Positions 2,975-53,296 of a DNA stretch of 53,296 bases are shown here, piece by piece. A program made the translations under genes and the position numbers. The notes under the pieces were generated by a model that was not told the DNA's origin, ran no database searches, and worked only from the letters and a program-made list of their open reading frames with translations. Origin of the DNA: Bacteroidota bacterium (lineage in GTDB: Bacteria; Bacteroidota; Bacteroidia; Bacteroidales; VadinHA17); the NCBI GenBank assembly GCA_012729475.1, contig JAAYDB010000037.1, positions 1 to 53,296 on the forward strand. The letters are read 5' to 3'. Each line of letters starts with the position of its first letter. Position 1 is the first letter of the stretch.

Positions 2975-3008
2975 TCAAGAAGCAAAAAACAAAATAATAT
3001 ATAACCGA

Positions 3009-8216: not shown

Positions 8217-8223
8217 AAAACAT

Positions 8224-8274
8224 GGAGTGACTGAAGCCCCGATATTTGTTGGTTTTATATGCTCCGGTCACTCC
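8224..8274. terminator. Inverted repeat between convergent genes
   Basis: Arms at 8224-8237 (GGAGTGACTGAAGC) and 8261-8274 (GCTCCGGTCACTCC) pair at 12 of 14 positions around a 23-base loop. The repeat lies between the converging ends of the GH95 and GH43 genes, where a bidirectional terminator is expected. There is no strong T run directly after either arm, so the call is tentative. Confidence 0.45.
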
Positions 8275-8281
8275 TGATTTT

Positions 8282-23703: not shown

Positions 23704-23715
23704 GAACATATGTTC
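23704..23715 (+). promoter_or_regulatory. GAAC-N4-GTTC operator upstream of DUF4405 gene
   Basis: GAACATATGTTC is a perfect 12-bp palindrome. It sits just before a near-consensus -7 box (TATTTTG, 23719-23725, one T short of TAnnTTTG) and 39 bases before the DUF4405 start. The position suits a repressor. The same core occurs at 25093, 41178, 44152 and 44178. Confidence 0.6.
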
Positions 23716-23754: not shown

Positions 23755-24552
23755 ATGAAACTTAGCGGTAGTTTTAGATCAAAATTGAATCTTAGTATAG
23801 ATATTATTATGTTCATTCTTCTTCTTGCTATGGCAGGCATAGGTTTTCTTATAAAATATGTGGTTGTCAGTGGTGAAGTAAGAAATGTAAAGTACGGTCC
23901 TTATGTTGATCTGGAATTTCTGGGTTTAACAAGACATCAGTGGGGGTCAATACATTTAATAGTGAGCATTATATTTTTGGTTCTTTTGGTTCTGCATATT
24001 GTTTTCCACTGGCGTTGTATCCTTTCAATATATAAATGTCTTTTCCCTTCACCTTTTACAAGGTCATTTATAGCTGTTATGCTGGTATTTCTCACGCTCT
24101 TTGCTCTTATTTCTCCATTTTTACTGAAACCCGATACTGTTCCTTTTGAGCCGGAATACAGAAACCGGAATTTTTATTTCCCTGAATCATCACAAAGCAA
24201 TGCTACAGATGTAACTGAGCATGTAACTTTTTCAAATGTTTCTCAAAATGAAATTTCCCTTGATGTTAACCCCTCTGAAGATCCGGAATCAAGATCTGTA
24301 GTTTTATCATCCGAAGGAACAATACATCATGGTCCTGAATATGATCAATATGAGGTCTTCGGCTATAATACTCTCAACGAAATAGCTGAAAGATACAGTA
24401 TTTCTGCAAATTCAATTGCAGATAAGCTTGGTATTCCTGCTAACCTTTCATCAGAAAGGTTGTCATGGCTCAGAAAGAGATATCCTTTTACCATGTCTGA
24501 TGTAAGAAAGACCATTGGAGAATTGACTACACAGAAAAATAGATTGCGATAA
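23755..24552 (+). CDS. DUF4405-type membrane protein with extended C-terminal domain
   Basis: A 265-residue protein with three membrane helices (about 14-34, 65-88, 105-123). His61 and His67 (RHQWGSIH) and His81 and His85 (LHIVFH) lie in and around the second helix, a pattern like b-type cytochrome or membrane-iron/heme sites in the DUF4405 family. After a polar linker (135-205), residues of about 208-260 form a helical module (NTLNEIAERYSISANSIADKLGIP) resembling a small HTH-like domain seen fused to such proteins in anaerobes. I infer a membrane redox or heme-binding role. A GAAC-N4-GTTC operator lies upstream, linking it to the DUF5320, arsR and DUF134 promoters. Confidence 0.7.
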   Translation: MKLSGSFRSKLNLSIDIIMFILLLAMAGIGFLIKYVVVSGEVRNVKYGPYVDLEFLGLTRHQWGSIHLIVSIIFLVLLVLHIVFHWRCILSIYKCLFPSPFTRSFIAVMLVFLTLFALISPFLLKPDTVPFEPEYRNRNFYFPESSQSNATDVTEHVTFSNVSQNEISLDVNPSEDPESRSVVLSSEGTIHHGPEYDQYEVFGYNTLNEIAERYSISANSIADKLGIPANLSSERLSWLRKRYPFTMSDVRKTIGELTTQKNRLR

Positions 24553-24641: not shown

Positions 24642-24986
24642 CTATTCTTTCTTCTCCAATTCTTCAAGCCTTTTCCCGATCTCATTCTGAGAACGTTTCA
24701 GGGCATCTGCTTCTGATTTGAGGAACTTCATCTCCTCCTCCCGGCTCATCTCCGGTGTCCATTGATTACGCGGCATATAAGCTGGCTGGCGAAAGGAAGG
24801 ATTATAACCCCATCCACGACCGAAGCCTCTGCCCCAGCCCATACCTCTTCCATTTCCAAATCCTCTTCCCATTCCTCTCCCGGAGCCTTTTGTGTACCCC
24901 GGAGAATCAAATCCGTAACAATATCCAAATGCTCTTCCGGTTCCGGGACCCTGTCCCAGAGGTCCGCTACGATCTCCTGCTGGCAT
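24642..24986 (-). CDS. DUF5320 protein, Gly/Arg-rich with C-terminal coiled coil
   Basis: A 114-residue protein opening with MPAGDRSGPLGQGPGTGR and a GYCYGF cysteine, the standard DUF5320 start. The centre (about 32-62) is a low-complexity GRGMGRGFGNGRGMGWGRG run, and residues of about 80-113 are a charged coiled coil (EEEMKFLKSEADALKRSQNE). DUF5320 proteins commonly sit beside NifX/ORP-family metallocluster proteins in anaerobes, but no biochemical role is established. Here the gene has a perfect TGAACATATGTTCA operator about 105 bases upstream and a minus-strand -7 box. A shorter homologue is encoded at 44995 inside the NifX cluster. Confidence 0.78.
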   Translation of the reverse strand: MPAGDRSGPLGQGPGTGRAFGYCYGFDSPGYTKGSGRGMGRGFGNGRGMGWGRGFGRGWGYNPSFRQPAYMPRNQWTPEMSREEEMKFLKSEADALKRSQNEIGKRLEELEKKE

Positions 24987-25073: not shown

Positions 25074-25130
25074 CAAATATAATAAATAAAGTGAACATAT
25101 GTTCATATTGATGTAAAAAATTTATCTTTG
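25074..25130. promoter_or_regulatory. Divergent promoter pair around a TGAACATATGTTCA operator
   Basis: On the minus strand TATATTTG (25081-25074) and on the plus strand TATCTTTG (25123-25130) both fit TAnnTTTG. Between them lies the perfect 14-bp palindrome TGAACATATGTTCA (25092-25105), placed in the spacer region of both promoters. A protein bound there could control DUF5320 (minus) and the HD-domain gene (plus) together. The remainder of 24987-25299 is AT-rich; the plus-strand leader of about 165 bases has a weak ACCTG/CAGGT pairing near 25167-25197. Confidence 0.6.
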
Positions 25131-41160: not shown

Positions 41161-41190
41161 TATATTTGCAAACACTTGAACAGTTGTTCA
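41161..41190 (+). promoter_or_regulatory. arsR promoter with SmtB-type operator
   Basis: A consensus -7 box TATATTTG (41161-41168) is followed by the perfect 14-bp palindrome TGAACAGTTGTTCA (41177-41190), covering the expected transcription start 14-27 bases before the arsR ATG. Known SmtB/CzrA operators have the same TGAAC...GTTCA core, so autorepression is the natural reading. Confidence 0.75.
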
Positions 41191-41203: not shown

Positions 41204-41569
41204 ATGAGAAAGGCAAAACCAAATATTACAGAGCTGGAATGTATTGAAGAAAACAAGGTCAGGTCGGTATTAAACAGAATGAAATCGGAGAGTTTTTTTC
41301 ACGATCTGGCAGAAACATTCAGTGCAATGAGTGATACAACCAGGGTTAAGATAATATATAGCCTTTGCCTGGAAAATGAACTATGCGTCCGGGATATTGC
41401 TGCAATAATAGGAACATCCGATTCTGCAATATCTCATCAGTTGAGAACTCTGAGAAATATGAAACTGGTCAGATACAATAAAGTTGGTAAAATGATTTAT
41501 TACTCTCTTGACGATATACATATTAATAATCTGGTTGCAGAGGGTTTAAGACATGTTGATGAGAAATGA
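41204..41569 (+). CDS. SmtB/CzrA-type ArsR-family metal-sensing repressor
   Basis: A 121-residue winged-helix repressor that releases DNA on binding metal. The recognition helix is TSDSAISHQLRTLR. The alpha5 metal site is complete and numbered as in SmtB: Asp104-x-His106-(x10)-His117-x2-Glu120. The other site is partly present, with Cys13 near the N-terminus and Cys61/Asp64 in ELCVRD. On established SmtB/CzrA chemistry this predicts a Zn(II)- or Co(II)-responsive sensor. The operator TGAACAGTTGTTCA overlaps its own promoter. feoA and feoB follow on the same strand, so metal status may control this iron-type transporter. Confidence 0.9.
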   Translation: MRKAKPNITELECIEENKVRSVLNRMKSESFFHDLAETFSAMSDTTRVKIIYSLCLENELCVRDIAAIIGTSDSAISHQLRTLRNMKLVRYNKVGKMIYYSLDDIHINNLVAEGLRHVDEK

Positions 41570-41619: not shown

Positions 41620-41865
41620 ATGAACAAAGATAAGGAGCAAGTCCGCTTACTGGATCTCGAAGATGGCCGGACAGGAATAATAATTTCTATCACTGGGGGG
41701 AAAATGCTTACAAAAAGGCTGGCGGATCTTGGGCTTTCAACAGGAACAAAAATCAAGATCCTGCGAAAAACCCCCTTTTCCGGACCGGTTCAGGTTGAAG
41801 TAAGAAGTTCGAAACTGGTACTGGGAAGGGGACTGGCATATAAAATCATGGTGGAAATACAATGA
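41620..41865 (+). CDS. feoA: FeoA-domain protein
   Basis: An 81-residue SH3-like protein of the FeoA family, with the usual RLADLGLSTGTKIKILRKTPFSGPVQVEV strand pattern and a C-terminal GRGLAYKIMVEI strand. FeoA is a cytosolic partner of the ferrous-iron transporter FeoB. The stop codon overlaps the feoB start (ATGA at 41862-41865), so translation is coupled. No separate promoter is seen after arsR (gap 50 bases). Confidence 0.85.
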   Translation: MNKDKEQVRLLDLEDGRTGIIISITGGKMLTKRLADLGLSTGTKIKILRKTPFSGPVQVEVRSSKLVLGRGLAYKIMVEIQ

Positions 41866-43793
41866 CAGAGGGAAAGAAGATCAACATTGTTCTTGCTGGT
41901 CAGGGTAATGCCGGAAAATCAACTATATTCAACTATTTAACCGGGTTACACCAGCATACAGGCAACTGGGCCGGTAAAACCATAGAAAAATTTGAAGGCA
42001 CACTATATTATAAAGGATACACCATTGATGTCTTCGATCTTCCCGGAATATATTCCCTTACAACTTATTCAGTAGAAGAAGTTATTTCCCGCGAATATAT
42101 TATTAAGCAAAAGCCTGATGTAGTAATAAACATCATTGATTCAACCAATCTTGAGAGGAATCTGATTTTCACTTTACAACTTCTTGAACTTGAATGTCCG
42201 GTTATTCTTGCTTTGAACATGGTTGATCTGGCCTTGAAGAAAGGTATTACCATTGACAGTGCAAAGCTTCAGAAGATCATAAATGCCCCGGTAATACCAA
42301 CAATTGCCTCCCGTGGTTCAGGCCTCACTGATATTATTGATAAAGCTATCGAACTAAAGGAAGGAAAAACTGAGTACAGGGTTCCCCGGTATGGTAAAGA
42401 AATTGAAAGCAGAATTGAGGATCTTTCGCAATATGTAAAGGATGTTGATCTCCCTTATCCAAGTAGATGGATTGCTATCAAGCTTCTTGAAAAAGACAGA
42501 GACATTGTAACAAACATCCGGGGAAAAGATCCCCGCATCCTCAAAGAGGCCGGAGAAGCTATTTACAGGCTGGAGGAAATTCACGGTCATGATTCTTCTG
42601 TGGTAATATCTGATGAAAGAACTCTTCTGGCTTCTCATATCACTCGTGAGATAGTAAATATTAGACCTCACAGGAAATTGTCTCTGAATGAAAAGCTTGA
42701 AATAATCACCACACATAAAATAATTGGTTATTTCATTATGATACTTATTCTTGGAGCAATGTTTGTCGGGGTATTCAGTTTTGGTAACTGGCTTTCATCC
42801 CTGTTCGAATCAGTTTTTCAAAACTGGCATGAATGGTGGAACAATGAGCTTGGAACAACATTAACTGCAGCACTGGGATGGGCAGCAGTTGAGAGTGTCC
42901 TTGCACTGGTCCAGATAGCTCTTCCATATATACTTCCTTTCTATATATTACTTTATATACTTGAGGATTGGGGTTATATAGCACGTATTTCTTTTCTTAT
43001 GGATAATTTTATGCATAAGATGGGAATACATGGTAAAGGTTGTATATCTTTTATTATCGGACTGGGATGCAATGTCCCCGGTTGCCTTTCATGCCGTATC
43101 ATGGAATCAAAGAGAGAAAGGTTTATAACAGCTGTTCTGGTTACATTGGTTCCCTGTTCTGCCGTATCTGTCATTATTTTCGGACTTGTAGGAAAATATG
43201 TGGGTCTGCTATGGGCTTTGGGTCTGTACCTTTTTGCGATGATTGTGATCTTTTTGACAGGGAAACTCTCATCAAAATTTATCGGAGGAGAACCTGTTGA
43301 ACTCATCATGCCTATGCCTGATTATAAAACACCTAATCTGAAAACCATATTATATGAAACATGGGATGCCCTTAAGGAATTTATTTATATAGCAGCTCCG
43401 ATAGTAATAATTTCAGGCGTTTTCATTCAGGCTATAAATCTTGCCGGCTGGATGCCTGCAATATCATCATTCCTGAGTCCTGTTACCGAAAAATGGCTGG
43501 GCCTTCCTGCTGTTACAGGAATTTTACTCATTTTCGGTATTCTCAGAAAAGAATTGATCCTCGTAATGCTGGCAGCTTATCTTGGAACAACAAGTTTTAT
43601 TGATGTACTTAGCCCTCAACAGATGATTACACTTTCAGTAGTCAGTATGTTCTATGTTCCCTGTGTTGCAACAATTTCAGTTTTGTGGAAAGATTTTGGC
43701 TGGAAAAAAGCCATGGCAGTCTGTATACTTGAAATATTGTTCGCAATAGCAATTGCAGGTATAGTAAAAAGAGCCCTTGATCTTGTTTTCTGA
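41862..43793 (+). CDS. feoB: FeoB-like ferrous iron (or other divalent metal) transporter, short divergent form
   Basis: A 643-residue protein with an N-terminal G domain and a membrane domain of about ten helices. G1 is GQGNAGKST (13-21), differing from the usual GxPNxGKT/S; G2 is in NWAGKT, where NWPGVT is typical; G3 DLPG (59-62) and G4 NMVD are normal. The gate core GLGCNVPGCLSCRIMESKRERF then LVPCSA is recognisable. It carries three Cys in the GCNVPGCLSC stretch, where many FeoB proteins have a small-residue motif. At 643 residues it is shorter than E. coli FeoB (773). Linkage to an SmtB-type regulator rather than Fur raises the chance that the cargo is not only Fe2+. Confidence 0.85.
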   Translation: MTEGKKINIVLAGQGNAGKSTIFNYLTGLHQHTGNWAGKTIEKFEGTLYYKGYTIDVFDLPGIYSLTTYSVEEVISREYIIKQKPDVVINIIDSTNLERNLIFTLQLLELECPVILALNMVDLALKKGITIDSAKLQKIINAPVIPTIASRGSGLTDIIDKAIELKEGKTEYRVPRYGKEIESRIEDLSQYVKDVDLPYPSRWIAIKLLEKDRDIVTNIRGKDPRILKEAGEAIYRLEEIHGHDSSVVISDERTLLASHITREIVNIRPHRKLSLNEKLEIITTHKIIGYFIMILILGAMFVGVFSFGNWLSSLFESVFQNWHEWWNNELGTTLTAALGWAAVESVLALVQIALPYILPFYILLYILEDWGYIARISFLMDNFMHKMGIHGKGCISFIIGLGCNVPGCLSCRIMESKRERFITAVLVTLVPCSAVSVIIFGLVGKYVGLLWALGLYLFAMIVIFLTGKLSSKFIGGEPVELIMPMPDYKTPNLKTILYETWDALKEFIYIAAPIVIISGVFIQAINLAGWMPAISSFLSPVTEKWLGLPAVTGILLIFGILRKELILVMLAAYLGTTSFIDVLSPQQMITLSVVSMFYVPCVATISVLWKDFGWKKAMAVCILEILFAIAIAGIVKRALDLVF

Positions 43794-43982: not shown

Positions 43983-44151
43983 ATCGGAGGTCGAACAAGC
44001 AGCGAATTCCGGCAATAATCATATAAAATTTATTTTGGGTGTCTTTCGCGCAAAACACCAAATATGTTTTCCCTCTCCCTGAAATTTATATTACCTATTT
44101 ATAATGCATTACCTGTTACAGACAAAAGATGACTTTTTATTGTTTTTTTAA

Positions 44152-44189
44152 GAACATTAGTTCATTATCTTTGTGGCGAACTATAGTTC
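44152..44189 (+). promoter_or_regulatory. DUF134 promoter with two GAAC-N4-GTTC operators
   Basis: A consensus -7 box TATCTTTG (44166-44173) is flanked by GAACATTAGTTC (44152-44163) in the spacer and GAACTATAGTTC (44178-44189) at the expected start point, 7 bases before the DUF134 ATG. A TTG at 44140-44142 may be the -33 element. Two sites bracketing one box suggests cooperative repression, by the DUF134 protein itself or by the SmtB-type regulator. Confidence 0.7.
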
Positions 44190-44196
44190 TTAACAA

Positions 44197-44664
44197 ATGT
44201 CACCCAGGCCTTTCAGATTAAGAAGAATAAGTGATCCTCCGGTTATATCAGGCTTTAAACCATACGGTGGTAATAACAAAGGAGAAAATGAAAGTGTATT
44301 TCTTCATCTTGAAGAATATGAAGCACTGCGATTATGTGATCATGAGATGCTGAATCATCATCAGGCTTCATTACTGATGTCTGTCTCACGACCTACACTG
44401 ACACGTATTTATTCCAGTGCCAGGAAAAAAGTAGCTGAAGCTATCGTTATGGGGAAACAGATAATTATTGAAGGAGGTAAGGTGTATTTCGACAGTGAAT
44501 GGTACTCTTGTAATAACTGTGGATGCTTTTTTAATAATCCTGATAAAATAAATGGAATACTTGAGTGTCCCTTATGCAGAAAAAAAGATTTTTCAAAATT
44601 TAATAATATATCTGATGAATCTGGAGATTCTCCAGCAGAAAAAGTAACAATAAAAAACAAATGA
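44197..44664 (+). CDS. DUF134 HTH regulator with C-terminal zinc-ribbon
   Basis: A 155-residue DUF134 protein. The N-terminal MSPRPFRLRRISDPPVISGFKPYG opening and the HTH helices (LEEYEALRLCDHEMLNHHQASLLMSVSRPTLTRIYSSARKK) are the family signature. A C-terminal metal knuckle (CNNCGC...CPLC) follows. DUF134 proteins are predicted DNA-binding regulators that sit next to NifX/ORP metallocluster genes in anaerobes. It starts a run of same-strand genes, only 1 base before the next gene, and its promoter has two GAAC-N4-GTTC sites, so self-control is likely. Confidence 0.85.
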   Translation: MSPRPFRLRRISDPPVISGFKPYGGNNKGENESVFLHLEEYEALRLCDHEMLNHHQASLLMSVSRPTLTRIYSSARKKVAEAIVMGKQIIIEGGKVYFDSEWYSCNNCGCFFNNPDKINGILECPLCRKKDFSKFNNISDESGDSPAEKVTIKNK

Positions 44665-44665
44665 T

Positions 44666-44983
44666 ATGAAAATAGCCATCACGAGTACAGGTAATAGTCT
44701 TGAAAGTAAAATTGATCAACGCTTTGGCCGTTGTGCTTATTTTGTTGTTTATGATCTTGAAACAAAAGGGATTGAGTACATTCCAAATCCCAACGTAGAT
44801 GCACTGGAAGGTGCCGGTCCCGCATCAGTTCAGGTTGTAGCATCAAGAGGTGTATCCAAAATAATATCCGGAGAATTTGGTGTTAAAGTTAAATCACTCC
44901 TTGACAGTCTGAAGGTACAGATGATAGTTATCAAAGAGCCGGAAAAAACAATAAATGAAATAATAAATATGTTTAACGATTAA
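44666..44983 (+). CDS. NifX/ORP-family (MTH1175-like) metallocluster-binding protein
   Basis: A 105-residue single-domain protein of the dinitrogenase iron-molybdenum cofactor family (NifX/NifB-C/MTH1175/ORP). The fold is marked by KIAITSTGNSLESKIDQRFGRCAYFVVYD and ISGEFGVKVKSLLDS. These proteins bind or carry Fe-S or Mo-containing clusters; orange protein carries a Mo-Cu-S cluster. No nitrogenase genes are present, so nitrogen fixation is not implied. It forms a two-gene unit with DUF134 and is followed by a DUF5320-like miniprotein and a second NifX-like gene. Confidence 0.85.
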   Translation: MKIAITSTGNSLESKIDQRFGRCAYFVVYDLETKGIEYIPNPNVDALEGAGPASVQVVASRGVSKIISGEFGVKVKSLLDSLKVQMIVIKEPEKTINEIINMFND

Positions 44984-44994
44984 ATATTATTATC

Positions 44995-45168
44995 ATGCCA
45001 AACAGGGATGGAACAGGACCTGAAGGAAAAGGTTCCAAAAGCGGTCGTGGTATGGGTCGCTGTAAAAAGAGTACCGGAAATGGAGATAGTCCTGCCAAAG
45101 GTACGGGCAAAAACCGTAGAAACGGTGGAGGCCAGGGAAAAGGGAACAGATCACAAAGAAGTTCCTGA
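44995..45168 (+). CDS. DUF5320-like Gly/Arg-rich miniprotein (57 aa)
   Basis: A 57-residue frame (ATG 44995, TGA 45166-45168). The N-terminus MPNRDGTGPEGKGSKSGRG matches the MPxGDGxGPxGxGPxTGRGxG opening of DUF5320 proteins. A single Cys (GRGMGRCKK) and a Lys/Arg/Gly tail follow. It lies between two NifX-family genes (11-base and 28-base gaps), a typical DUF5320 position. It is the short partner of the longer DUF5320 gene at 24642. Confidence 0.7.
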   Translation: MPNRDGTGPEGKGSKSGRGMGRCKKSTGNGDSPAKGTGKNRRNGGGQGKGNRSQRSS

Positions 45169-45196
45169 GTATTAATTATTAATTCAAAAAAACTCA

Positions 45197-45535
45197 ATGA
45201 AAAAAAGAATCGCTGTCCCACTGGAAAACGGGATATTATGTTCTCATTTTGGTCATTGTCAGAAATTTGCAATTATTGACGCAGACAATAACATTATTAC
45301 AGGTGAAGAACTGCTAACACCTCCGCCTCATGAACCAGGTCTACTTCCTGCATGGCTCGCAGAAAAAGGTGTAACAGATGTTATAGCAGGAGGAATGGGG
45401 CAAAGAGCTATAAATTTGTTCATTCAGCAAAATATTAATGTTTTTGTTGGAGCTCCCATTAAAAATCCAAAAGAACTGGCCAGTGACCTTCTCGGTAATT
45501 CCTTGAAGGCAGGAGCTAATTATTGTGATCATTAA
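45197..45535 (+). CDS. NifX/ORP-family metallocluster-binding protein (second copy)
   Basis: A 112-residue member of the same family as the gene at 44666, recognised from KRIAVPLENGILCSHFGHCQKFAIID and the GGMGQRAINLFIQQNINVFVGA core. Cys residues in LCSHFGHC and the C-terminal ANYCDH could provide cluster ligands that the first copy lacks. Two divergent paralogues side by side suggest donor/acceptor or heteromeric cluster handling, as proposed for ORP systems. The DUF89 gene follows after 11 bases. Confidence 0.85.
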   Translation: MKKRIAVPLENGILCSHFGHCQKFAIIDADNNIITGEELLTPPPHEPGLLPAWLAEKGVTDVIAGGMGQRAINLFIQQNINVFVGAPIKNPKELASDLLGNSLKAGANYCDH

Positions 45536-45546
45536 TCTGCTTGCTT

Positions 45547-46443
45547 ATGATTTGTGATTATCGCTGCTTCTTTTGTTTTACCAGAGCTGTCGAAAAATTA
45601 CTTCAGAAAGAACCTGTATCTCAAGAGGAAAAAGGACTTATTGTAGATAAAATGATCACTGCTTATCAAAACAGTAGAAATAATTTTTCAGCCCCTGAGT
45701 TCTCCCGTGAAATAAATCTTATAATACAGAAATATTCAGGAAATAATGATCTGTACAAAGAAGAAAAGAGAGAAACCAATAATTTGGCAATAAGTATGTT
45801 ACCGGAACTAACCCTGATCACGGAAAAATCAGATGACCGGTTTAATACAACATTGAGGATAGCAATAGCAGGTAATATAATGGATTTTGCTGCCAATGAT
45901 AATTTTAACCTGCAGGAGACCGTACAAAAAACTCTTAAGGAAGATTTTGCAATAGATCATTCAGTACAGTTAAAAGAAGCACTGAAAAATGCAGGGTCGG
46001 TTCTTTATCTTGGTGACAATGCAGGAGAAATAGTATTTGATAAACTTTTTATCAAAACCACAGGCTTGCAGAATGTTACTTTCGTGGTAAGAGGAGGAGC
46101 TGTTCTGAATGATGTAACGGCAGAGGATGCTGAATATACAGGTATGAAAGAGATAGCAAATGTCATTTCTAACGGATATGACGCTCCTTCAACTCTTCCT
46201 GATAAATCCAGTGAAGAGTTTTGTGATTATTACAATAAAGCAGATGTTATTATTTCCAAAGGACAGGGTAACCTTGAGGGACTGTATCACCTGAAAGATA
46301 AAAGAATATTTTTTCTGCTTCTTGTAAAATGTGATGTCATTGCAGAATCACTAAAAGTTCCAAAAAACAGTATAGTAGTATATAATTCGTCTTATTATGA
46401 AACGAACATGAGCAACAACTCACAACAGGAAATAATTGTATAA
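45547..46443 (+). CDS. DUF89/ARMT1-like protein
   Basis: A 298-residue protein of the DUF89 group, started at ATG 45547 (a TTG lies 6 bases before). The N-terminus MICDYRCFFCFTRAVEKLL carries the CxxC characteristic of archaeal/bacterial DUF89 proteins. The core has LYLGDNAGEIVFDKLF, FVVRGGAVLNDVT and the ISKGQGNLEGL motif with metal-binding Asp/Asn residues. DUF89 proteins are metal-dependent phosphatases or carboxyl methyltransferases acting on damaged metabolites. Its frequent presence beside NifX-like genes suggests a role in cofactor repair, but this is inference. Confidence 0.8.
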   Translation: MICDYRCFFCFTRAVEKLLQKEPVSQEEKGLIVDKMITAYQNSRNNFSAPEFSREINLIIQKYSGNNDLYKEEKRETNNLAISMLPELTLITEKSDDRFNTTLRIAIAGNIMDFAANDNFNLQETVQKTLKEDFAIDHSVQLKEALKNAGSVLYLGDNAGEIVFDKLFIKTTGLQNVTFVVRGGAVLNDVTAEDAEYTGMKEIANVISNGYDAPSTLPDKSSEEFCDYYNKADVIISKGQGNLEGLYHLKDKRIFFLLLVKCDVIAESLKVPKNSIVVYNSSYYETNMSNNSQQEIIV

Positions 46444-46522
46444 ATCATGTAAGTTCCATTTGGCCAATGAAATAATATAATTAACGAATGAATAAAATAA
46501 TCAAATATAATTCATCAGAATC

Positions 46523-47467
46523 ATGATATGCTTCGGACCGGTACCATCGAGAAGACTTGGGAAAAGTCTTGGAGTCAATAATATTATTGCACCAAAAACC
46601 TGTTCTTACAGTTGTGTTTATTGTCAGGTCGGACCAACAATGAAAGAAAGCATTAAAAGAGATATACACTTTAAACCTGATGTAATTCTGGACAATGTAA
46701 AACATCATATTAGTCTTCTTAATAAGAATAATTATCCTGATTATATTACACTCGTGTCAAATGGTGAACCCACTCTTGATATTCATCTTGGTGAAACTAT
46801 CAGCCTTCTTAAGCTTACCGGGTTCCCTGTTGCTGTAATCACAAATGCATCTCTTCTGACAGATGATTCCGTACGGGAGCATCTGTCTCTGGCTGACTGG
46901 GTATCATTAAAAATTGATGCAGCAAATAAAGACGTATGGAAAACAATTAACAGACCGCATAAAAATCTCGATTTTGACAGATATATAGAGAGTATTCTTC
47001 TTTTTGCCCATAATTTTAAAGGGAGCCTACATACAGAATCGATGATAATACAGGGAATAAATGATACAGATGAACATATTCCCTTACTGGCAGGAACAGT
47101 AAAAAAGATCAATCCTAATATAGCTTACCTTTCTGTCCCTGTCAGACCTCCCTGCGAAACATGGGTGAAACCACCAGATACAAAACGCCTGAACATAGTA
47201 TGGCAGACTTTTACACAGAATAATATCACAACAGAACTGCTTACCGGTTTCGAAGGCTCTGATACAGGATTCACCGGCAATATATATGAAGATATTCTTA
47301 ATATTACTGCTGTCCATCCTCTTAGAGAGGACTCTATGCGCTCATTGCTTGAGAAAGATAATGCTGAATTTCAAGTTGTTGAATCTCTTCTAAAACAGAA
47401 ACTGATAAAATCAACTACTTACAAAGGGAAAAAATACTTTATCAGGGAATATCATATTAAATCTTAA
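46523..47467 (+). CDS. Radical SAM protein
   Basis: A 314-residue radical SAM enzyme. The [4Fe-4S]-SAM cluster motif is CSYSCVYC (CxxxCxxC) after FGPVPSRRLGKSLGVNNI, an opening used by the COG0731-like Fe-S oxidoreductases. VSNGEPTLD supplies the SAM-binding GE motif, and the C-terminal residues (about 245-310) form a wHTH-like extension. The product is not known. As a member of the NifX/Hdr run it could build or insert a cofactor. A 79-base gap precedes it and the deformylase gene follows after 6 bases. Confidence 0.82.
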   Translation: MICFGPVPSRRLGKSLGVNNIIAPKTCSYSCVYCQVGPTMKESIKRDIHFKPDVILDNVKHHISLLNKNNYPDYITLVSNGEPTLDIHLGETISLLKLTGFPVAVITNASLLTDDSVREHLSLADWVSLKIDAANKDVWKTINRPHKNLDFDRYIESILLFAHNFKGSLHTESMIIQGINDTDEHIPLLAGTVKKINPNIAYLSVPVRPPCETWVKPPDTKRLNIVWQTFTQNNITTELLTGFEGSDTGFTGNIYEDILNITAVHPLREDSMRSLLEKDNAEFQVVESLLKQKLIKSTTYKGKKYFIREYHIKS

Positions 47468-47473
47468 ATCATC

Positions 47474-47998
47474 ATGGCTCTTCCAATTATACTGTATGGT
47501 TCAACTGTTTTACGCAAGCATTGTTTTGAAGTGAAGGAAGAAGATAATCTGAAAGAAATATCTGATGAATTATTTGATACTCTTAAGAAGGCCCGGGGAA
47601 TAGGTCTGGCAGCTCCTCAGATAAATCTACTGAAAAGGATCTTCGTAATTGACACTACTCCCATGGTGAAAGATGATGTAAGCATTGAACAATTTGAAGG
47701 CGTTTATTTGAATCCTGAAATACTTGATTATGAAAAAGACAGTGTAACTTACACAGAAGGTTGTCTGAGCATACCTGATATCTTTGAGGAGGTAAAAAGA
47801 CCTGATAAAATATATGTCAGATACCAGGATATTTCATTGAAAACGCATGAGGAAGAACTCGATGGGATTATAGCCAGGATTTTTCAACATGAATATGATC
47901 ATCTTGAGGGTATATTGTTCATCGATAGAATGAATCTTCTGAAGCGTAAACTTATTGCCGGTAAATTGAACAACATTAAACGATCTTCCATAACATAA
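47474..47998 (+). CDS. def: Peptide deformylase
   Basis: A 174-residue metalloenzyme that removes the formyl group from nascent Met. All three motifs are intact: GIGLAAPQ (motif 1), EGCLS with the metal-binding Cys (motif 2) and HEYDH (motif 3). It is of type 1/2 bacterial length. It lies inside the anaerobic redox run, 6 bases after the radical SAM gene and 11 before the HdrC-like gene, which is an unusual home for def and may be only co-transcription. Confidence 0.93.
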   Translation: MALPIILYGSTVLRKHCFEVKEEDNLKEISDELFDTLKKARGIGLAAPQINLLKRIFVIDTTPMVKDDVSIEQFEGVYLNPEILDYEKDSVTYTEGCLSIPDIFEEVKRPDKIYVRYQDISLKTHEEELDGIIARIFQHEYDHLEGILFIDRMNLLKRKLIAGKLNNIKRSSIT

Positions 47999-48009
47999 TA
48001 TTTTTAATT

Positions 48010-48693
48010 ATGCCAACATTATATGAGCAGCTGGAAAAAGATGTCCGTTATATTGAAGGATCAAAAGCCTGCATGAACTGTGGTGTTTGCACAGCTATCT
48101 GTCCTGCTGCAGAAGTTAGTGATTATGATCCACGTATGATCGTATCACTGGTACAGCAAAAAGATGAAGCTGAACTTGAAAAACTCTTAAAGAGCGATAC
48201 AATATGGCGATGTGGTGAGTGTCTTTCATGCAAAACAAGATGCCCCAGAGGAAATGTTCCCTGTTATATTATCCAGGCTTTAAGAGCATTATCAATCGAA
48301 ACCGGATTATTCATTGAAAGTGAACAGGGAAGAAAACAGCTTGCAATAAAACGTACTGTTGGAGATCATATTCTCAAATATGGATATTGTATTTATTTCG
48401 ACGAAGTGGATCTTGAAACCTATCCTGAACAGGGACCTGTGTGGGACTGGTTCAGAAATAACAGGGAATCAATGATGGAAAGACTGGGAACAAGCTACAA
48501 AAAGAATACCTCAGGAACTCTAAGGAATACATCAAAGGAATCACTGGATGATCTGAAAAAGATCTTCGATGAAACAGGTGGCACACAACGTTTTGAGAAA
48601 ATAGAACAATATTCTTCGGTCAAAGCAAAAGAATTAAAGAAGGATTTCAGCGGTGAAAAAGATGAATACTGGAAATACCTGTATAATGAATAA
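48010..48693 (+). CDS. HdrC-like iron-sulfur subunit
   Basis: A 227-residue protein with two [4Fe-4S] motifs typical of the HdrC subunit of heterodisulfide reductase: Cys21/24/27/31 (CMNCGVCTAICP) and Cys68/71/74/78 (CGECLSCKTRCP). A helical tail of about 120 residues follows; HdrC is usually about 185-200 residues, so this extension is longer. It passes electrons between the flavin subunit and the HdrB cluster. The next gene encodes the HdrB-like partner, followed by a flavoprotein instead of an HdrA. Confidence 0.87.
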   Translation: MPTLYEQLEKDVRYIEGSKACMNCGVCTAICPAAEVSDYDPRMIVSLVQQKDEAELEKLLKSDTIWRCGECLSCKTRCPRGNVPCYIIQALRALSIETGLFIESEQGRKQLAIKRTVGDHILKYGYCIYFDEVDLETYPEQGPVWDWFRNNRESMMERLGTSYKKNTSGTLRNTSKESLDDLKKIFDETGGTQRFEKIEQYSSVKAKELKKDFSGEKDEYWKYLYNE

Positions 48694-48747
48694 GCTATAT
48701 TTTCCATTTTTATTAGCACACTTACATACTAATTAATAAACCATCCC

Positions 48748-49815
48748 ATGAAGATCCGGATCAACGAAATATGGGCAGCACACCAGAAAGAGATCGCAGA
48801 AGATCACTATTATTTTGCCCGCAGTTGCATCAGGCAAAATATTTTCCCCGCTGCGGAAAACCTGTATCTGAATATTCTTAAAGATGAACTCGGAAAAGAT
48901 ATTTTTGATGATGAGCGCCATACAACATGTACCGGTATAGCTTATCATTCGGGTTTAATTCCGATGGAAACAATAATGACTGTTGTTGCCCGGCAATTTG
49001 CTCTTATGAATGAAGCCGGTTATGAAAACTTTGTTGTATCGTGTGTTACTTCATTCGGCATTTATGTAGAAATGCTGGAAACATGGAAACATTTTCCTGA
49101 GACTTTGCACAAAACCCGGACAGCTTTAAAAAAAGCTACCGGAAAAAGCTTTGAAATACCTAAGAATCTTGTACATGCCAGCGATATAATTTATAAATTC
49201 CGTAAAGAACTGTCGGATAAGACCAGATATAAACTGGTAAATCAAAACACAGGTGAGCCATTGAAAGTAGTTGATCATATTGGATGCCATTATGCCAAGA
49301 TCTTCCCATCGCATGGTGTTGGCGGTGCTGAATATCCATACGTACTTGCCGGTCTGACAGACGAATGGGGAGGAAAGCAGGTTGACTATCCGGAAAGAAG
49401 ACACTGCTGCGGTTTTGGCTTTAGACAATATCTTCTGAAATCAAACAGAGGATACTCCGTAACGAATTCCAAAAAGAAATTTGAATCAATGTACCCTTAT
49501 AAACCGGATGTTATTATTGCTAATTGTCCGGGGTGTACTTTCTTCCTTGACCGCTGGCAATATGTTATTGCCGAACAGCAAGGCAAAACATATGGAGAAA
49601 ACGGCTTTGGAATACCAGTACTTACATATGAAGAAATTGCTGGTCTTCTGCTGGGTTATGATCCATGGGATATAGGACTGCAGATACATCAGGTTACCGT
49701 GGAACCACTTCTTGATAAACTTGGAATAGAATATGACCCGGAAAAGAAATACAAAGGAATAAACGGGGAAGATATTGGTATACCGGAAAAACCGAATATT
49801 TTGAAATCAGTTTAA
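48748..49815 (+). CDS. HdrB-like CCG-domain subunit
   Basis: A 355-residue protein with a good C-terminal cysteine-rich CCG motif: Cys181, Cys221-Cys222, Cys261 and Cys264. This set binds the unusual [4Fe-4S] cluster that splits disulfides in HdrB. The N-terminal copy is decayed: Cys27, Cys61 (TCTG instead of CCG), Cys99 then CVTS instead of CxxC, so it probably holds at most a damaged cluster. HdrB-type proteins reduce heterodisulfides such as CoM-S-S-CoB or, in bacteria, unknown thiols. It is preceded by the HdrC-like gene and followed by a FAD/NAD disulfide reductase-like gene. Confidence 0.85.
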   Translation: MKIRINEIWAAHQKEIAEDHYYFARSCIRQNIFPAAENLYLNILKDELGKDIFDDERHTTCTGIAYHSGLIPMETIMTVVARQFALMNEAGYENFVVSCVTSFGIYVEMLETWKHFPETLHKTRTALKKATGKSFEIPKNLVHASDIIYKFRKELSDKTRYKLVNQNTGEPLKVVDHIGCHYAKIFPSHGVGGAEYPYVLAGLTDEWGGKQVDYPERRHCCGFGFRQYLLKSNRGYSVTNSKKKFESMYPYKPDVIIANCPGCTFFLDRWQYVIAEQQGKTYGENGFGIPVLTYEEIAGLLLGYDPWDIGLQIHQVTVEPLLDKLGIEYDPEKKYKGINGEDIGIPEKPNILKSV

Positions 49816-49886
49816 AACTGGCAAATGATTAATTCAATTTGTAAGTTCCATACAACTATCGAAATAATAATTAAATAAAAAAACAT

Positions 49887-51242
49887 ATGAAAACAACTGA
49901 CGTATTAACAATTGGAGGAAGCGCTGCCGGCATGGTTGCTGCGCTGACAGGTAAATCATCCTGGCCAAAAAAGGATTTCGTCCTTGTAAAAAAACAAAAG
50001 GAAATGATGGTTCCCTGCGGAATACCATACATTTTCGGAACCCTCAGTAATATCGATCAGAATATTATGCCTGTTGATGCCATGATGGAAAAAGCAGGTA
50101 TTGAATCCATTGTTGATGAAGTTTTAAGAATTGATACCGAAAAGAAGATAGCTGAAATGGCCAGTGGCGAAAGCATACAATATAATAAGCTTGTCATGGC
50201 TACCGGATCTCTCCCCGTCAAACCAAAATGGCTTATCGGAGGTGAGAAAGAAAATGTCTTCACAATACCCAAGGATAAAGTCTACCTTGATGAAATGAAA
50301 CAAAAACTTGAAGGTTGTAAAAAAGTTGTTGTGGTTGGAGCCGGATTCATTGGAGTGGAATTTTCTGATGAGCTTCTCAAGAGTGGACATGAAGTTACTC
50401 TTGTTGAAAAATTATCAGATATTTTAATGCTTGCCTTTGATGTTGAACTATCAAAGAAAATTGAAGAGATACTTGCAGCAAGAGGAGTTAAAGTCGTTAC
50501 AGGCAAGGGAATAAAACAGATCAACGGAGATACAAAAGTTGAGTCTGTAACTCTTGAAAACGGAGATGTAATTGAATCTGATGCCGTTATTCTCTCTGTT
50601 GGATATAAACCAAATGCTGAACTGGCACGCAATTCAGGAATATATGTTGACGAAAGTGGTTTTATTGCCGTTGATGAATACATGAGAACTCATGTAAAAG
50701 ATATTTTTGCTGTAGGTGACTGTGCACAAAAACGCGACTTTGTAACAAGAGCCCGTGTTTCAACAATGCTCGCTTCAACAGCCTGTGCAGAAGCCAGAAT
50801 TGCAGGCATGAATCTTTTCGCCCTTAATGTGGTTAAAACTTTCAGCGGAACAATTGCCATCTACTCAACTGCCGTTGGTGATACCGGTTTTGGAACAGCA
50901 GGTATCACAGAAGCAAAAGCCATTGAAGAAGGAATTGATACGGTTACCGGTACCTTCGAAGGTATTGACCGTCATCCCGGAAATCTACCTGGCGCTCACA
51001 AACAACTTGTAAAACTGATTGTTGCCCGGCAGGCAGGTGTTATTATAGGTGGTGAAGTTATTGGCGGATTAAGTGCAGGAGAATTAACCAATGTAATTGG
51101 AATAATAATACAAAACAGAATGTCAGTTAATTCCCTGCTTACAGCCCAGATAGGAACACATCCCTGCCTGACAGCTTCACCTGCCGGCTATCCTCTTATT
51201 AAAGCAGCAGAGATGATTGCAGCTAAAATAAGGATAAAATAA
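49887..51242 (+). CDS. FAD/NAD(P)-dependent disulfide oxidoreductase (CoA-disulfide reductase/NADH oxidase type)
   Basis: A 451-residue flavoprotein. FAD-binding GGSAAG at 10-15, redox Cys44 in VPCGIPYIF, NAD(P)-binding GAGFIGVE (about 152-159) and a second FAD motif in FAVGDCAQ place it in the NADH oxidase/CoA-disulfide reductase branch, where the single Cys forms a mixed disulfide or cysteine sulfenic acid. It probably supplies or receives electrons for the HdrBC-like pair, in place of the classical HdrA flavoprotein. Its C-terminal dimerisation domain is complete. Confidence 0.88.
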   Translation: MKTTDVLTIGGSAAGMVAALTGKSSWPKKDFVLVKKQKEMMVPCGIPYIFGTLSNIDQNIMPVDAMMEKAGIESIVDEVLRIDTEKKIAEMASGESIQYNKLVMATGSLPVKPKWLIGGEKENVFTIPKDKVYLDEMKQKLEGCKKVVVVGAGFIGVEFSDELLKSGHEVTLVEKLSDILMLAFDVELSKKIEEILAARGVKVVTGKGIKQINGDTKVESVTLENGDVIESDAVILSVGYKPNAELARNSGIYVDESGFIAVDEYMRTHVKDIFAVGDCAQKRDFVTRARVSTMLASTACAEARIAGMNLFALNVVKTFSGTIAIYSTAVGDTGFGTAGITEAKAIEEGIDTVTGTFEGIDRHPGNLPGAHKQLVKLIVARQAGVIIGGEVIGGLSAGELTNVIGIIIQNRMSVNSLLTAQIGTHPCLTASPAGYPLIKAAEMIAAKIRIK

Positions 51243-51252
51243 AAAATAACTA

Positions 51253-51392
51253 TCTGAGGGTATTTTAATCTGATAATCATTTCTATGGAAATAACCAGGA
51301 TTGGGATTATTATTTGCCACAGGTATAATACCTGCACAGGGGGAAAATGCTTCAGACCGGCATTATTACTGGAACTCCCCCTGTGCCTCAGA
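51253..51392 (+). ncRNA. Candidate structured leader RNA upstream of ferredoxin-ATPase gene
   Basis: Three nested or adjacent perfect pairings lie in the 249-base gap 51243-51491. P1 is TCTGAGG (51253-51259) with CCTCAGA (51386-51392). P2 is the 15-base palindrome CAGGTATAATACCTG (51320-51334). P3 is GCACAGGGGGA (51334-51344) with TCCCCCTGTGC (51376-51386), an 11-bp stem with an AAATGC...GGCATT loop. The fold is a compact multi-stem domain followed by about 100 bases before the ATPase start. It could be a riboswitch, an attenuator or a terminator plus leader. I do not recognise a known riboswitch core. Confidence 0.4.
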
Positions 51393-51491
51393 AATATTAT
51401 GAAATTCACACAAAACTTAAAACATGGATTGACTCCTTCTTGTAGGATTCAGCCAGACTGACTCTTACAGATCAATTAACCAGACTAAAAT

Positions 51492-52355
51492 ATGATTAGG
51501 ATTGCTATTGCCAGCGGAAAAGGAGGAACCGGAAAAACCCTTATTGCTACAAATATTTTCAATACCCTGATATTTAACCACAGGAAAGCCACACTTGTAG
51601 ATTGTGACGCAGAGGCACCAAACGCTGCTGTTTTTTTCAGTAATAAAAAAACAGACACTTTTGATGTTCATCAGATGGTCCCGGTCATCGATACCAATAA
51701 ATGTACATATTGCGGAAAATGTCACGACTATTGTGTTTATAATGCTATATTCCTATTACCTCCCATGAAGGTGATAAAAGTGATAGAAGATCTCTGCCAT
51801 GGATGCGGTGCCTGTAGTTATGCCTGTGAATACGGAGCAATAACTGAGAAAACGGTTTCACTGGGACAGGTAAACAACTATTTAACCAATTCAGGATATA
51901 AAATAACAGAAGCCCGGATGAACATAGGAGTAATGTCTCCGGTCCCTGTTATTAAAGCTGCAATAAACCATGCAGACAAAGATGAAATAATCATAATGGA
52001 CTCACCCCCGGGTACCTCCTGCCCTTTCATTCAGACAGCCTCCAAAGCCGATTATATAGTCCTTGTTACAGAACCCACTCCCTTCGGATTAAGCGATCTG
52101 AAACAAAGTGTTTATACTTTACAAAATATGGATAAACCATTCGGAGTTATTATTAACAGGGCAGGCCTGGGAAACAGAGATGTTTATAAATGGCTCGAAG
52201 AAGAAAATATTGATCTTATAATGGAACTGCCCTTTAATGTGAATATTGCAAAAATATATTCAGAAGGTAAACTTATCACTGATGAATTGCCGGATTATAA
52301 AACGGAATTTTTTGATCTGACAAATAAAATTAATGATGTAATAAAAAATAAATAA
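51492..52355 (+). CDS. MinD/Mrp-type P-loop ATPase with inserted ferredoxin domain
   Basis: A 287-residue ATPase of the MinD/Mrp/NifH superfamily. Deviant Walker A GKGGTGKT (9-16), VDCDAEAPN and DSPPGTSCP switch regions are intact. A 2x[4Fe-4S] ferredoxin insert (about 65-116) has Cys71/74/77/81 and Cys102/105/108/112. This domain combination defines the ATPases encoded with the orange-protein (ORP) complex of Desulfovibrio. It likely supplies ATP-gated electrons or carries Fe-S clusters for the NifX/ORP proteins. ORP loci usually have two such genes in tandem; only one is seen here. Confidence 0.88.
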   Translation: MIRIAIASGKGGTGKTLIATNIFNTLIFNHRKATLVDCDAEAPNAAVFFSNKKTDTFDVHQMVPVIDTNKCTYCGKCHDYCVYNAIFLLPPMKVIKVIEDLCHGCGACSYACEYGAITEKTVSLGQVNNYLTNSGYKITEARMNIGVMSPVPVIKAAINHADKDEIIIMDSPPGTSCPFIQTASKADYIVLVTEPTPFGLSDLKQSVYTLQNMDKPFGVIINRAGLGNRDVYKWLEEENIDLIMELPFNVNIAKIYSEGKLITDELPDYKTEFFDLTNKINDVIKNK

Positions 52356-52456: not shown

Positions 52457-53296
52457 ATGAATTTTTTGATAAGAATATCGCGTATTATTGTTGGTCTTGT
52501 CTTTGTTTTTTCAGGTTTTGTAAAAGCAGTTGATCCGTTGGGATCAACATATAAGTTCATTGATTATTTCAATGCCTTTAATATGCCATGGCTTGAGCCG
52601 GCAGCCCTGCCCTTTTCCATAATTCTCAGTGGTTCCGAATTTCTCATCGGTATCTGCCTCTTATTATTCATCCAGAATAAACTGGTAAACTGGGGAGCTC
52701 TTATTTTTATGGGAATATTTACTCCTTTAACCTTATGGCTGGCACTTGAAAATCCGGTTCAGGACTGCGGATGCTTTGGTGATGCAATAATTCTAACAAA
52801 CTGGCAAACATTTTATAAAAACATTGTTATTCTGGTATTTGTAATAATTTCCTTTATTTACAAAGATACTATCAAACCCCGGATGTCACTTAAAACAGAA
52901 TGGATCATAACCATTGCCACAGGTCTGACCATTACCTTATTCTCATGCTACAACCTGAGACATCTACCTGTGATAGATTTCAGACCCTACAAGACCGGGA
53001 CCTATATTCCCGATGGTATGATAATACCCGAAGATGCACCGGCAAATATCTACAAACAGGATTTCACACTACTTGATACTATCAGCGGAAAAGAAATAAC
53101 CATAGACAGTGATGAATATATGAATGATTCTACTTACTGGATGACAGGTACCTCATGGATATTTATTTCATCATCTGATCCTGTATTGGTAAAAGCCGGA
53201 TATGTGCCACCAATTCATGATTTCAGTATAACATCACTCTCTGGGGAGGATATTACTGACCTGGTTCTCTCGGATCCGGGATATACTTTTGTTCTG
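52457..53296 (+). CDS. DoxX/MauE-family membrane protein of BT_3928 type, truncated by window edge
   Basis: The frame starts at ATG 52457 and remains open to the window end, 280 codons without a stop. The N-terminal half has four membrane helices (about 5-150) of the DoxX/MauE type with the family motif VQDCGCFGD. The second half continues with a fifth helix and a soluble region starting LLDTISGKEITIDS, as in the Bacteroidota BT_3928 family. MauE-like proteins are tied to disulfide or quinone redox. The neighbouring ATPase gene lies 101 bases upstream. Confidence 0.75.
   Translation, partial: MNFLIRISRIIVGLVFVFSGFVKAVDPLGSTYKFIDYFNAFNMPWLEPAALPFSIILSGSEFLIGICLLLFIQNKLVNWGALIFMGIFTPLTLWLALENPVQDCGCFGDAIILTNWQTFYKNIVILVFVIISFIYKDTIKPRMSLKTEWIITIATGLTITLFSCYNLRHLPVIDFRPYKTGTYIPDGMIIPEDAPANIYKQDFTLLDTISGKEITIDSDEYMNDSTYWMTGTSWIFISSSDPVLVKAGYVPPIHDFSITSLSGEDITDLVLSDPGYTFVL

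Follow-up and report, generated by a model that had tools for sequence, protein, structure and literature searches.

What brings the genes of an ORP-type metallocluster system, of an HdrC- and HdrB-like protein pair (HdrCB) and of a disulfide reductase-like flavoprotein into a single run, and what could such a run do for the cell? The question is raised by positions 44197-52355 of a contig of 53,296 nucleotides from a Bacteroidota bacterium of the order Bacteroidales. This contig (C176 of genome G000) was analysed over its whole length, up to its end at 53296, and is called the window here; all coordinates refer to it unless stated otherwise. A sequence-only reading had proposed a system that builds or charges a metal cluster and couples it to a low-potential disulfide or NADH step. 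The answer that we favour, though tentatively, is a Bacteroidales ORP-type operon for the metal-switched building or loading of iron-sulfur or metal-sulfide clusters, with a supply of sulfur and electrons; the run as such probably handles iron-sulfur or metal-sulfur clusters. The argument draws on gene content, linkage, operator sites and their sharing, and cysteine patterns, all of which were computed.

All genes named by the sequence-only reading are present on the plus strand between 44197 and 52355, in the order that it gave and with family names that hold; its list was correct as far as it went, but overlooked a peptide deformylase gene (Def, 47474-47998). The complete order is DUF134, NifXa, DUF5320, NifXb, DUF89, radical SAM, Def, HdrC, HdrB, flavoprotein and MinD, with intergenic gaps of 1, 11, 28, 5, 79, 6, 11, 54, 71 and 249 bases. 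The first gene encodes a DUF134 protein (44197..44664; PF02001, E 2.3e-22), which we take to be a DNA-binding helix-turn-helix (HTH) protein. It is followed by NifXa (44666..44983), an ORP/Orp8-like protein (PF02579, E 1.2e-15; PDB 2wfb 'ORP', E 1.2e-10; MTH1175, 1eo1, E 3e-11), and by a miniprotein of 57 aa with the sequence GRGMGRC (44995..45168). The latter clusters with small proteins at the equal position in relatives, and its presumed family name, DUF5320, is also the one used by the sequence-only reading. NifXb (45197..45535) resembles a stand-alone Di-Nase half of MrpORP: it matches NF041136 with E 5.8e-35 over model positions 264-364, below the cut-off for the whole protein, and has the motifs CxHFGHC and CDH. 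Both are motifs of the MrpORP Di-Nase domain (PMC6345978).

The middle of the run encodes a DUF89/ARMT1-like protein of the damage-control phosphatase family (45547..46443; PF01937, E 2.1e-59; PDB 2g8l, E 1.2e-40), whose reading frame opens with TTG at 45541 and has an ATG at 45547, a radical SAM protein with CxxxCxxC (46523..47467; PF04055, E 6.9e-15), for which a PDB sequence search returned no relative at E 0.01, and Def (47474..47998; PF01327, E 1.6e-49). HdrC (48010..48693) has two CxxCxxCxxxC motifs and reaches 99.3 bits with NF041779, below the cut-off of 350, while HdrB (48748..49815; PF02754) reaches 136.8 bits with NF041780, below the cut-off of 450; its C-terminal CCG site is complete, and its N-terminal site lacks two of five cysteines. 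The flavoprotein (49887..51242) is an NADH flavoprotein of the CoA-disulfide/persulfide reductase kind by similarity (TIGR03385, 220.6 bits, below the cut-off of 578.8; PDB 3kd9, E 6.8e-48) and has no rhodanese domain. The gap of 249 bases behind it houses a remnant of a CGGC gene (51285..51496) in two pieces, corresponding to residues 1-28 and 102-147 of a relative and one of them with a stop; this gene is intact between flavoprotein and MinD in loci L007 and L012. MinD1 (51492..52355), identified by profile match, is a MinD-type ATPase with two ferredoxin motifs, similar to Orp3/Orp4.

The window thus includes one MinD of the usual two, and the run is broken by the contig end. A MauE/DoxX-type membrane protein gene (52457..53296, plus strand; PF07291 in the relative from L084) is truncated at 53296, and its residues 285-388, as counted in L084, are found on C109, another contig of G000. 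The first nine bases of reverse-complemented C109 equal the last nine of the window (matched by eye, the scripted comparison having covered overlaps from 11 bases upwards), and the run continues there with MinD2 and a NUBPL/Mrp ATPase gene. The same order of MinD, MauE/DoxX, MinD and NUBPL occurs in L007 and L084. Behind NUBPL, positions 2104-3403 of reverse-complemented C109 (L188) code for a metallo-beta-lactamase-type protein and for another DUF134 protein; both genes are convergent to the run.

Whether these genes belong together was judged from stretches around 34 related HdrB loci (named records) and from 196 related genomes. Fetched loci bear L-numbers and genomes G-numbers, and genes in the fetched loci were labelled with profiles built from clusters of those same loci. 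Same-contig duplicates (L037, L069, L070, L072-L076, L080, L081, L085, L107) were removed from the locus labelling and from the cysteine and operator counts, and in the operator count of HdrCB units split HdrB genes (L089, L101, L035) were counted once per locus. At the genome level, thresholds of E 1e-60 for the flavoprotein and E 1e-40 for MinD were applied; p values for co-occurrence were computed without correction for the relatedness of genomes.

The fetched MinD loci, 79 in number after two with weak MinD matches (L103, L177) were left out, come from 78 of the 82 MinD-bearing genomes. Within 10 kb, 75 of them have at least two MinD genes, 71 NifX, 62 DUF134, 34 NUBPL, 31 CGGC, 22 radical SAM, 21 DUF89, 14 HdrCB and seven Def. 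If only loci with 6 kb or more on either side are counted (30 in all), NifX is present in all 30, DUF134 in 27, NUBPL in 16, CGGC in 15, DUF89 in ten, radical SAM in eight, HdrCB in six and Def in three. Runs that include HdrCB recur in L007, L012, L032, L077, L084, L088 and L089. Given the frequencies of NifX (71/79) and DUF134 (62/79) near MinD and these recurring runs, the association of the genes exceeds chance. The comparison across Bacteroidales hence bears out the claim that the ORP-like locus stays together in relatives, and the attachment of an Hdr-type pair, likewise claimed before, is a recurrent feature. From the same frequencies of NifX, DUF134 and MinD it follows that the core is an ORP-like locus of Bacteroidales, which HdrCB, DUF89, radical SAM and Def supplement. 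The eight ferredoxin cysteines of MinD are each kept in at least 152 of 156 MinD proteins.

A second line of evidence is given by the promoter. Two palindromes, GAACATTAGTTC and GAACTATAGTTC, lie 26 bases apart before DUF134, at the paired operator AGAACATTAGTTCA (44151-44164) and CGAACTATAGTTCT (44177-44190) on the plus strand, and bracket TATCTTTG, which we take to be a Bacteroidetes-type -7 box by its promoter consensus. The window has five copies of the pattern GAACN4GTTC where 0.6 would be expected, and none of 100 dinucleotide shuffles reaches five. Besides the pair, single sites precede an SmtB-like gene ahead of feoAB (TGAACAGTTGTTCA, 41177..41190, plus strand), a DUF4405 gene (GAACATATGTTC, 23704..23715, plus strand) and a second DUF5320-type gene (TGAACATATGTTCA, 25092..25105, minus strand). 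The DUF4405 membrane protein (23755..24552, plus strand; PF14358, E 8.5e-13) is cytochrome-b-like by our reading, and its relatives sit between Def and HdrC in L084 and L071. The relatives of the second DUF5320-type gene (24642..24986, minus strand) have an upstream site in 18 of 29 cases.

Related operons were searched from 120 bases before to 60 bases after each gene start, with at most one mismatch. Where DUF134 is followed by NifX, 41 of 59 operons have a site, compared with a mean of 0.4 after mononucleotide shuffling, and 14 of the 16 related operons with two sites keep the spacing of 26 bases. Genes inside the operons have few sites of their own (MinD 1/167, NUBPL 0/44, CGGC 0/40, radical SAM 0/31, NifX 5/157, HdrB 0/68, HdrC 1/64, flavoprotein 1/49), as expected for one transcript. 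The operator is shared among the run, feoAB, DUF4405, the second DUF5320 gene and, as described below, HdrCB units. The operator is also present at nine of nine copies of cluster c29, which encodes a small membrane protein with cysteines (L071, 3892-4182, and relatives) and lies by a second DUF134-OsmC-NifX set.

What protein would read these sites? The gene at 41204..41569 on the plus strand encodes a regulator of the SmtB/ArsR family (NF033788, E 4.1e-24); its closest solved structure is SmtB (1r1t, E 5.7e-21), and DxHx10Hx2E is found at residues 104-120. This motif is the alpha5 signature, and operators of this class are 12-2-12 inverted repeats near the transcription start, an Anabaena repeat with the core TGAACA-GA-TGTTCA being among those listed (PMC8790569). 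The sites of the window have TGAACA-N2-TGTTCA-like cores of this 12-2-12 type over the promoter. The SmtB-like protein is therefore our candidate regulator of the run, and its binding to the sites is predicted. Directly behind it follow FeoA (41620-41865; PF04023, E 2.5e-20) and FeoB for ferrous iron uptake (41862-43793; PF02421, E 2.2e-59), both on the plus strand. FeoB also occurs beside or within the run in L135, L098 and L078; in L078 (genome G058) a FeoB-like gene at 6734-8452 lies between Def and HdrC. From these patterns, a control site of the metal-sensing type seems to govern the ORP run and iron-uptake genes jointly.

The same regulator and operators could also belong to a store against metal or sulfide stress, in which thiometallates or surplus metal are sequestered by NifX and by small proteins rich in glycine, under an SmtB-type switch. 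The alpha5 motif and the resemblance of the sites to the operator class in PMC8790569 fit such a store, and IssA, a member of the NifX family, binds thioferrate (PMC6345978). However, feoAB imports iron from behind the same kind of site, which argues for metal demand rather than detoxification, and the Mrp and MinD ATPases would point to cluster transfer. We regard a stress store as distinctly unlikely.

The place of HdrCB is harder to define. The eight cysteines of the two [4Fe-4S] motifs are present in 64 of 64 HdrC proteins. In HdrB, the N-terminal site reads C27, T/S60, C61, C99 and S102 in all 62 aligned sequences, and the C-terminal site is complete. In the phmmer alignment, T60 falls on the leading cysteine of the CC pair, and S102 falls on the last one of the N-terminal motif, which by numbering is presumably Cys81. 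Sequence relatives of HdrB in the PDB are 9sfi and 5odc. Compared with HdrABC, the window pair shares the two [4Fe-4S] motifs of HdrC and the intact C-terminal CCG of HdrB, but no HdrA adjoins it, none being among the profile matches of the window, its scores fall below the NCBIfam cut-offs, and two cysteines are missing from its N-terminal CCG, one of them at the position of a bridging cysteine. Cys81 and Cys234 are the cysteines with a bridging role at the catalytic irons of HdrB (PMC13083937). With two of five N-terminal cysteines missing, classical two-cluster disulfide cleavage by HdrB is unlikely; the protein of the window is predicted to bear a single noncubane cluster and, besides it, a three-cysteine site at most. 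A degenerate CCG domain beside an intact one is also known from mycobacterial EtfD, where Thr replaces one ligand cysteine, a linear [3Fe-4S] cluster occupies the changed site and the clusters serve as an electron wire (PMC13083937). EtfD differs in being membrane-bound and fused and in having lost one ligand, whereas HdrB here has lost two, one of them at another position.

Two kinds of HdrB were distinguished. Kind A, with 36 aligned sequences including that of the window, is 74-85% identical to the window HdrB; kind B, with 26 sequences, is 59-68% identical and mostly part of a separate complex, HdrC-HdrB-HdrA-HdrC2-cytochrome b/HdrD. Such a B-kind complex is also present in G000 (L038, C71:1500-21400, C71 being a further contig of this genome) and is common in related genomes. 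A-type copies occur twice in genome G086, once in an ORP run (L089, HdrB with an internal stop) and once DUF89-led by a Qmo-like set (L090). An A-type HdrB with 76% identity lies at L033:10001-11035; its contig bears the title Alphaproteobacteria and may be misplaced in the assembly. A wider spread of the window-type HdrB in the phylum was dropped as a candidate finding: G000 was the one match at E 1e-100 among 395 sampled phylum genomes, of which 374 are not listed and five listed ones belong to the same order.

Within the fetched stretches, the 36 A-type HdrB loci have an ORP context in 14 cases, a Qmo-like one in 12, both in three and neither in seven, and in a quick tree of HdrB, in which 15 of 59 inner branches are well supported, the ORP label changes at least five times among the A kind. 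The main rival of our reading is that HdrCB is the HdrBC part of a Qmo-like HdrA/FlpD/QmoC energy complex acting on sulfur borne by TusA/DsrE, and that the ORP operon merely houses and co-expresses the pair. QmoAB-HdrBC complexes have been described (PMC10504309). In L010 the genes form the operon DsrE2-TusA-FlpD-HdrA-HdrA-QmoC-HdrC-HdrB with an overlap of 4 bases between QmoC and HdrC, and C71 of G000 carries QmoC-HTH-HdrA-HdrA-FlpD-TusA. Genomes with HdrB-A have QmoA more often than the others (16/31 vs 27/165, p 6e-5), also when the fragments and fusions omitted from this stricter count (G032, G037, G085, G092, G097, G098, G128, G140, G185) are included (17/31 vs 35/165, p 2.6e-4). As in QmoAB-HdrBC or type II Qmo systems, HdrCB follows QmoC-like, two HdrA-like and FlpD genes in relatives, with TusA and DsrE2 nearby; unlike there, HdrCB of G000 stands apart, in the ORP operon, and neither aprA nor dsrA is matched in that genome. 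In L133, a Qmo-like set is contiguous with the ORP run while HdrCB is absent from the stretch.

The operators argue differently. HdrCB units of non-B loci have a site in 23 of 41 cases, two of them weak (L086, L101), compared with none of 24 B-type loci (Fisher 1.4e-6, kinship not corrected). Units led by DUF89 have it in six of six loci of one clade (L090, L091, L092, L094, L095, L096), which lie by a Qmo-like set and lack MinD within the fetched stretch, and units led by Def in two of two (L008, L009). L005 has a site some 160 bases upstream of HdrC, and L015 has two upstream of HdrC, in a region common to a divergent DUF134 gene. The genes of the Qmo set, in contrast, are nearly devoid of the operator (HdrA 1/60, QmoC 1/20, FlpD 0/15, TusA 0/15, DsrE2 0/14), whereas HdrCB units that are not part of the Qmo operon frequently have it in common with the ORP locus; 15 of the 31 HdrB-A genomes lack a close QmoA. 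A role of the Qmo-like set in sulfate reduction was considered and is unlikely in G000, which has no aprA or dsrA match; aprA scores above the cut-off in nine of the 196 genomes, G000 not among them, and dsrA in none. Taken together, membership of HdrCB in a Qmo-like energy complex, with the ORP operon as mere host, is possible, if on balance doubtful.

The flavoprotein follows a different partner. It is found in 43 of the 196 genomes; these counts rest on the E 1e-60 set, since the looser locus label has 12 of 48 rows below 50% identity. MinD is present in 38 of the 43 genomes with the flavoprotein and in 44 of the 153 others, and in 23 of the 43 the two lie within 10 kb, many of these loci being without HdrCB. 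The active-site Cys44 in PCGIP is kept in 36 of 36 orthologues with at least 50% identity, as is an acidic residue that follows strand two of the NAD site. Such a residue at this place goes with a preference for NADH, and its conservation suggests that the flavoprotein uses NADH. Like CoA-disulfide reductase (CoADR) and Npsr, the window protein has a catalytic cysteine adjacent to FAD, but its 220.6 bits stand against a CoADR model cut-off of 578.8, and the C-terminal rhodanese domain of Npsr is absent. Flavoproteins of this superfamily that are fused to rhodanese, with 30-31% identity, do occur near MinD in L014 and L140, in L014 next to HdrC. Npsr catalyses NADH-dependent reduction of persulfide and polysulfide (PMC7969121), and the rhodanese-fused proteins near MinD thus indicate persulfide chemistry. 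Of the proposed low-potential disulfide or NADH step, the part concerning the flavoprotein stands, as it looks NADH-linked and persulfide-reductase-like; a disulfide step in the sense of Hdr is doubtful with the degenerate N-terminal site of HdrB.

The sequence-only reading had further joined HdrCB and the flavoprotein into one module with a non-HdrA flavoprotein, which can be spelled out as an HdrA-free, NADH-dependent disulfide reductase that would be charged by the ORP cluster. HdrB does adjoin the flavoprotein in the window, L005, L007, L012, L077, L079 and L089, the rhodanese-type flavoprotein stands beside HdrC in L014, and HdrB-A and the flavoprotein co-occur weakly within the genus (p 0.026). 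Over all 196 genomes this co-occurrence is not significant (p 0.16), the flavoprotein often accompanies MinD where HdrCB is missing, HdrCB itself is associated with the Qmo-like HdrA, and the N-terminal CCG is degenerate. An HdrA-free reductase is thus highly improbable, and the idea of HdrCB and flavoprotein as one enzyme was dropped, the flavoprotein following the MinD pair.

How would the ORP-type operon, the reading that we prefer, then work? The nearest known system is the ORP complex of Desulfovibrio vulgaris (Orp3, Orp4, Orp5, Orp8, Orp9/MrpORP). Both have a pair of MinD-like ATPases, each with two [4Fe-4S] motifs, an ORP/Orp8-type NifX (NifXa; D. gigas ORP 2wfb, E 1.2e-10), a Di-Nase domain in which CxHFGHC and CDH occur, and an Mrp domain. 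Here, MrpORP is split into NifXb and NUBPL, and DUF134, DUF5320, DUF89, radical SAM, Def, HdrCB and flavoprotein genes are added. D. vulgaris has two divergent sigma54-dependent operons (PMC6345978), in contrast to one co-directional run with SmtB-type operators here, where no scan for sigma54 sites was made. The roles which we propose for the ORP parts come from the work on Desulfovibrio, in which Orp3-Orp4-Orp8 receive Fe-S clusters from MrpORP in vitro; the role of the complex is still putative, cell division being named (PMC6345978).

On these grounds we infer all biochemical roles, which protein is the regulator and what metal it responds to, as follows. An SmtB/ArsR-type repressor on the paired promoter operators would turn the operon on together with feoAB upon metal, and Feo would feed ferrous iron into cluster assembly. 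NifXa may hold a metal-sulfide cluster, while the MinD pair with its ferredoxin motifs, together with the NUBPL/Mrp ATPase and NifXb as a split MrpORP, would carry and insert clusters. The NADH flavoprotein could reduce persulfide or polysulfide, giving sulfide or keeping the system reduced, and HdrC-HdrB with its one intact CCG cluster might pass electrons to a sulfur or cluster acceptor. The source of these electrons would probably be a Qmo-like HdrA complex whose genes lie in another part of the genome.

Several results weigh against the ORP-operon reading. HdrCB lies near just 14 of the 79 MinD loci, so the ORP system works without it, and seven of the 36 A-type HdrB loci have neither context, in part because contigs end. 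No operator was found at the unit in 18 of the 41 non-B HdrCB loci, some of them cut by contig ends, nor where HdrCB stands behind QmoC, directly (L006, L010, L068) or after DUF89 (L082, L087). The missing close QmoA in 15 of 31 HdrB-A genomes counts here as well. Among 159 NifX proteins scored for motifs, 48 have CxHFGHC (39 of these with a CDH end) and 49 have no scored motif. A strict form of the paired-operator pattern gave no match in G000, which says little because the window pair departs from the strict letters. Finally, the SmtB-like gene was found in one further fetched locus, L135, with FeoA, FeoB and ORP genes; being present in two fetched loci only, it leaves room for DUF134, the first gene in most of these runs, which may be the regulator instead. 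Elsewhere in the window, a polygalacturonase-type gene (GH28, 29336-30730) is unrelated to the run.

Among the literature matches listed, none concerned the gene run, DUF134 as its regulator or HdrCB with ORP, most subscription papers lying outside the coverage. The run thus consists of known parts in an unusual and recurrent combination, apparently co-regulated, and represents a variant of the ORP kind; SmtB/ArsR-type operators over an ORP promoter are new here. The shared operator joins ORP genes, ferrous iron uptake, DUF4405 and the one-site HdrCB into one testable regulon, for which two regulator candidates are named. A further step, that the Hdr machinery serves metallocluster assembly and not energy metabolism, with a metal-sensing regulon giving an ORP complex its own sulfur and electron supply through a persulfide-reductase-like flavoprotein and an HdrCB whose single CCG cluster, of catalytic type, would use Qmo-derived electrons on sulfur or nascent clusters, is in our view unlikely. 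Should HdrCB indeed serve cluster assembly, Hdr proteins would have a function beyond energy metabolism.

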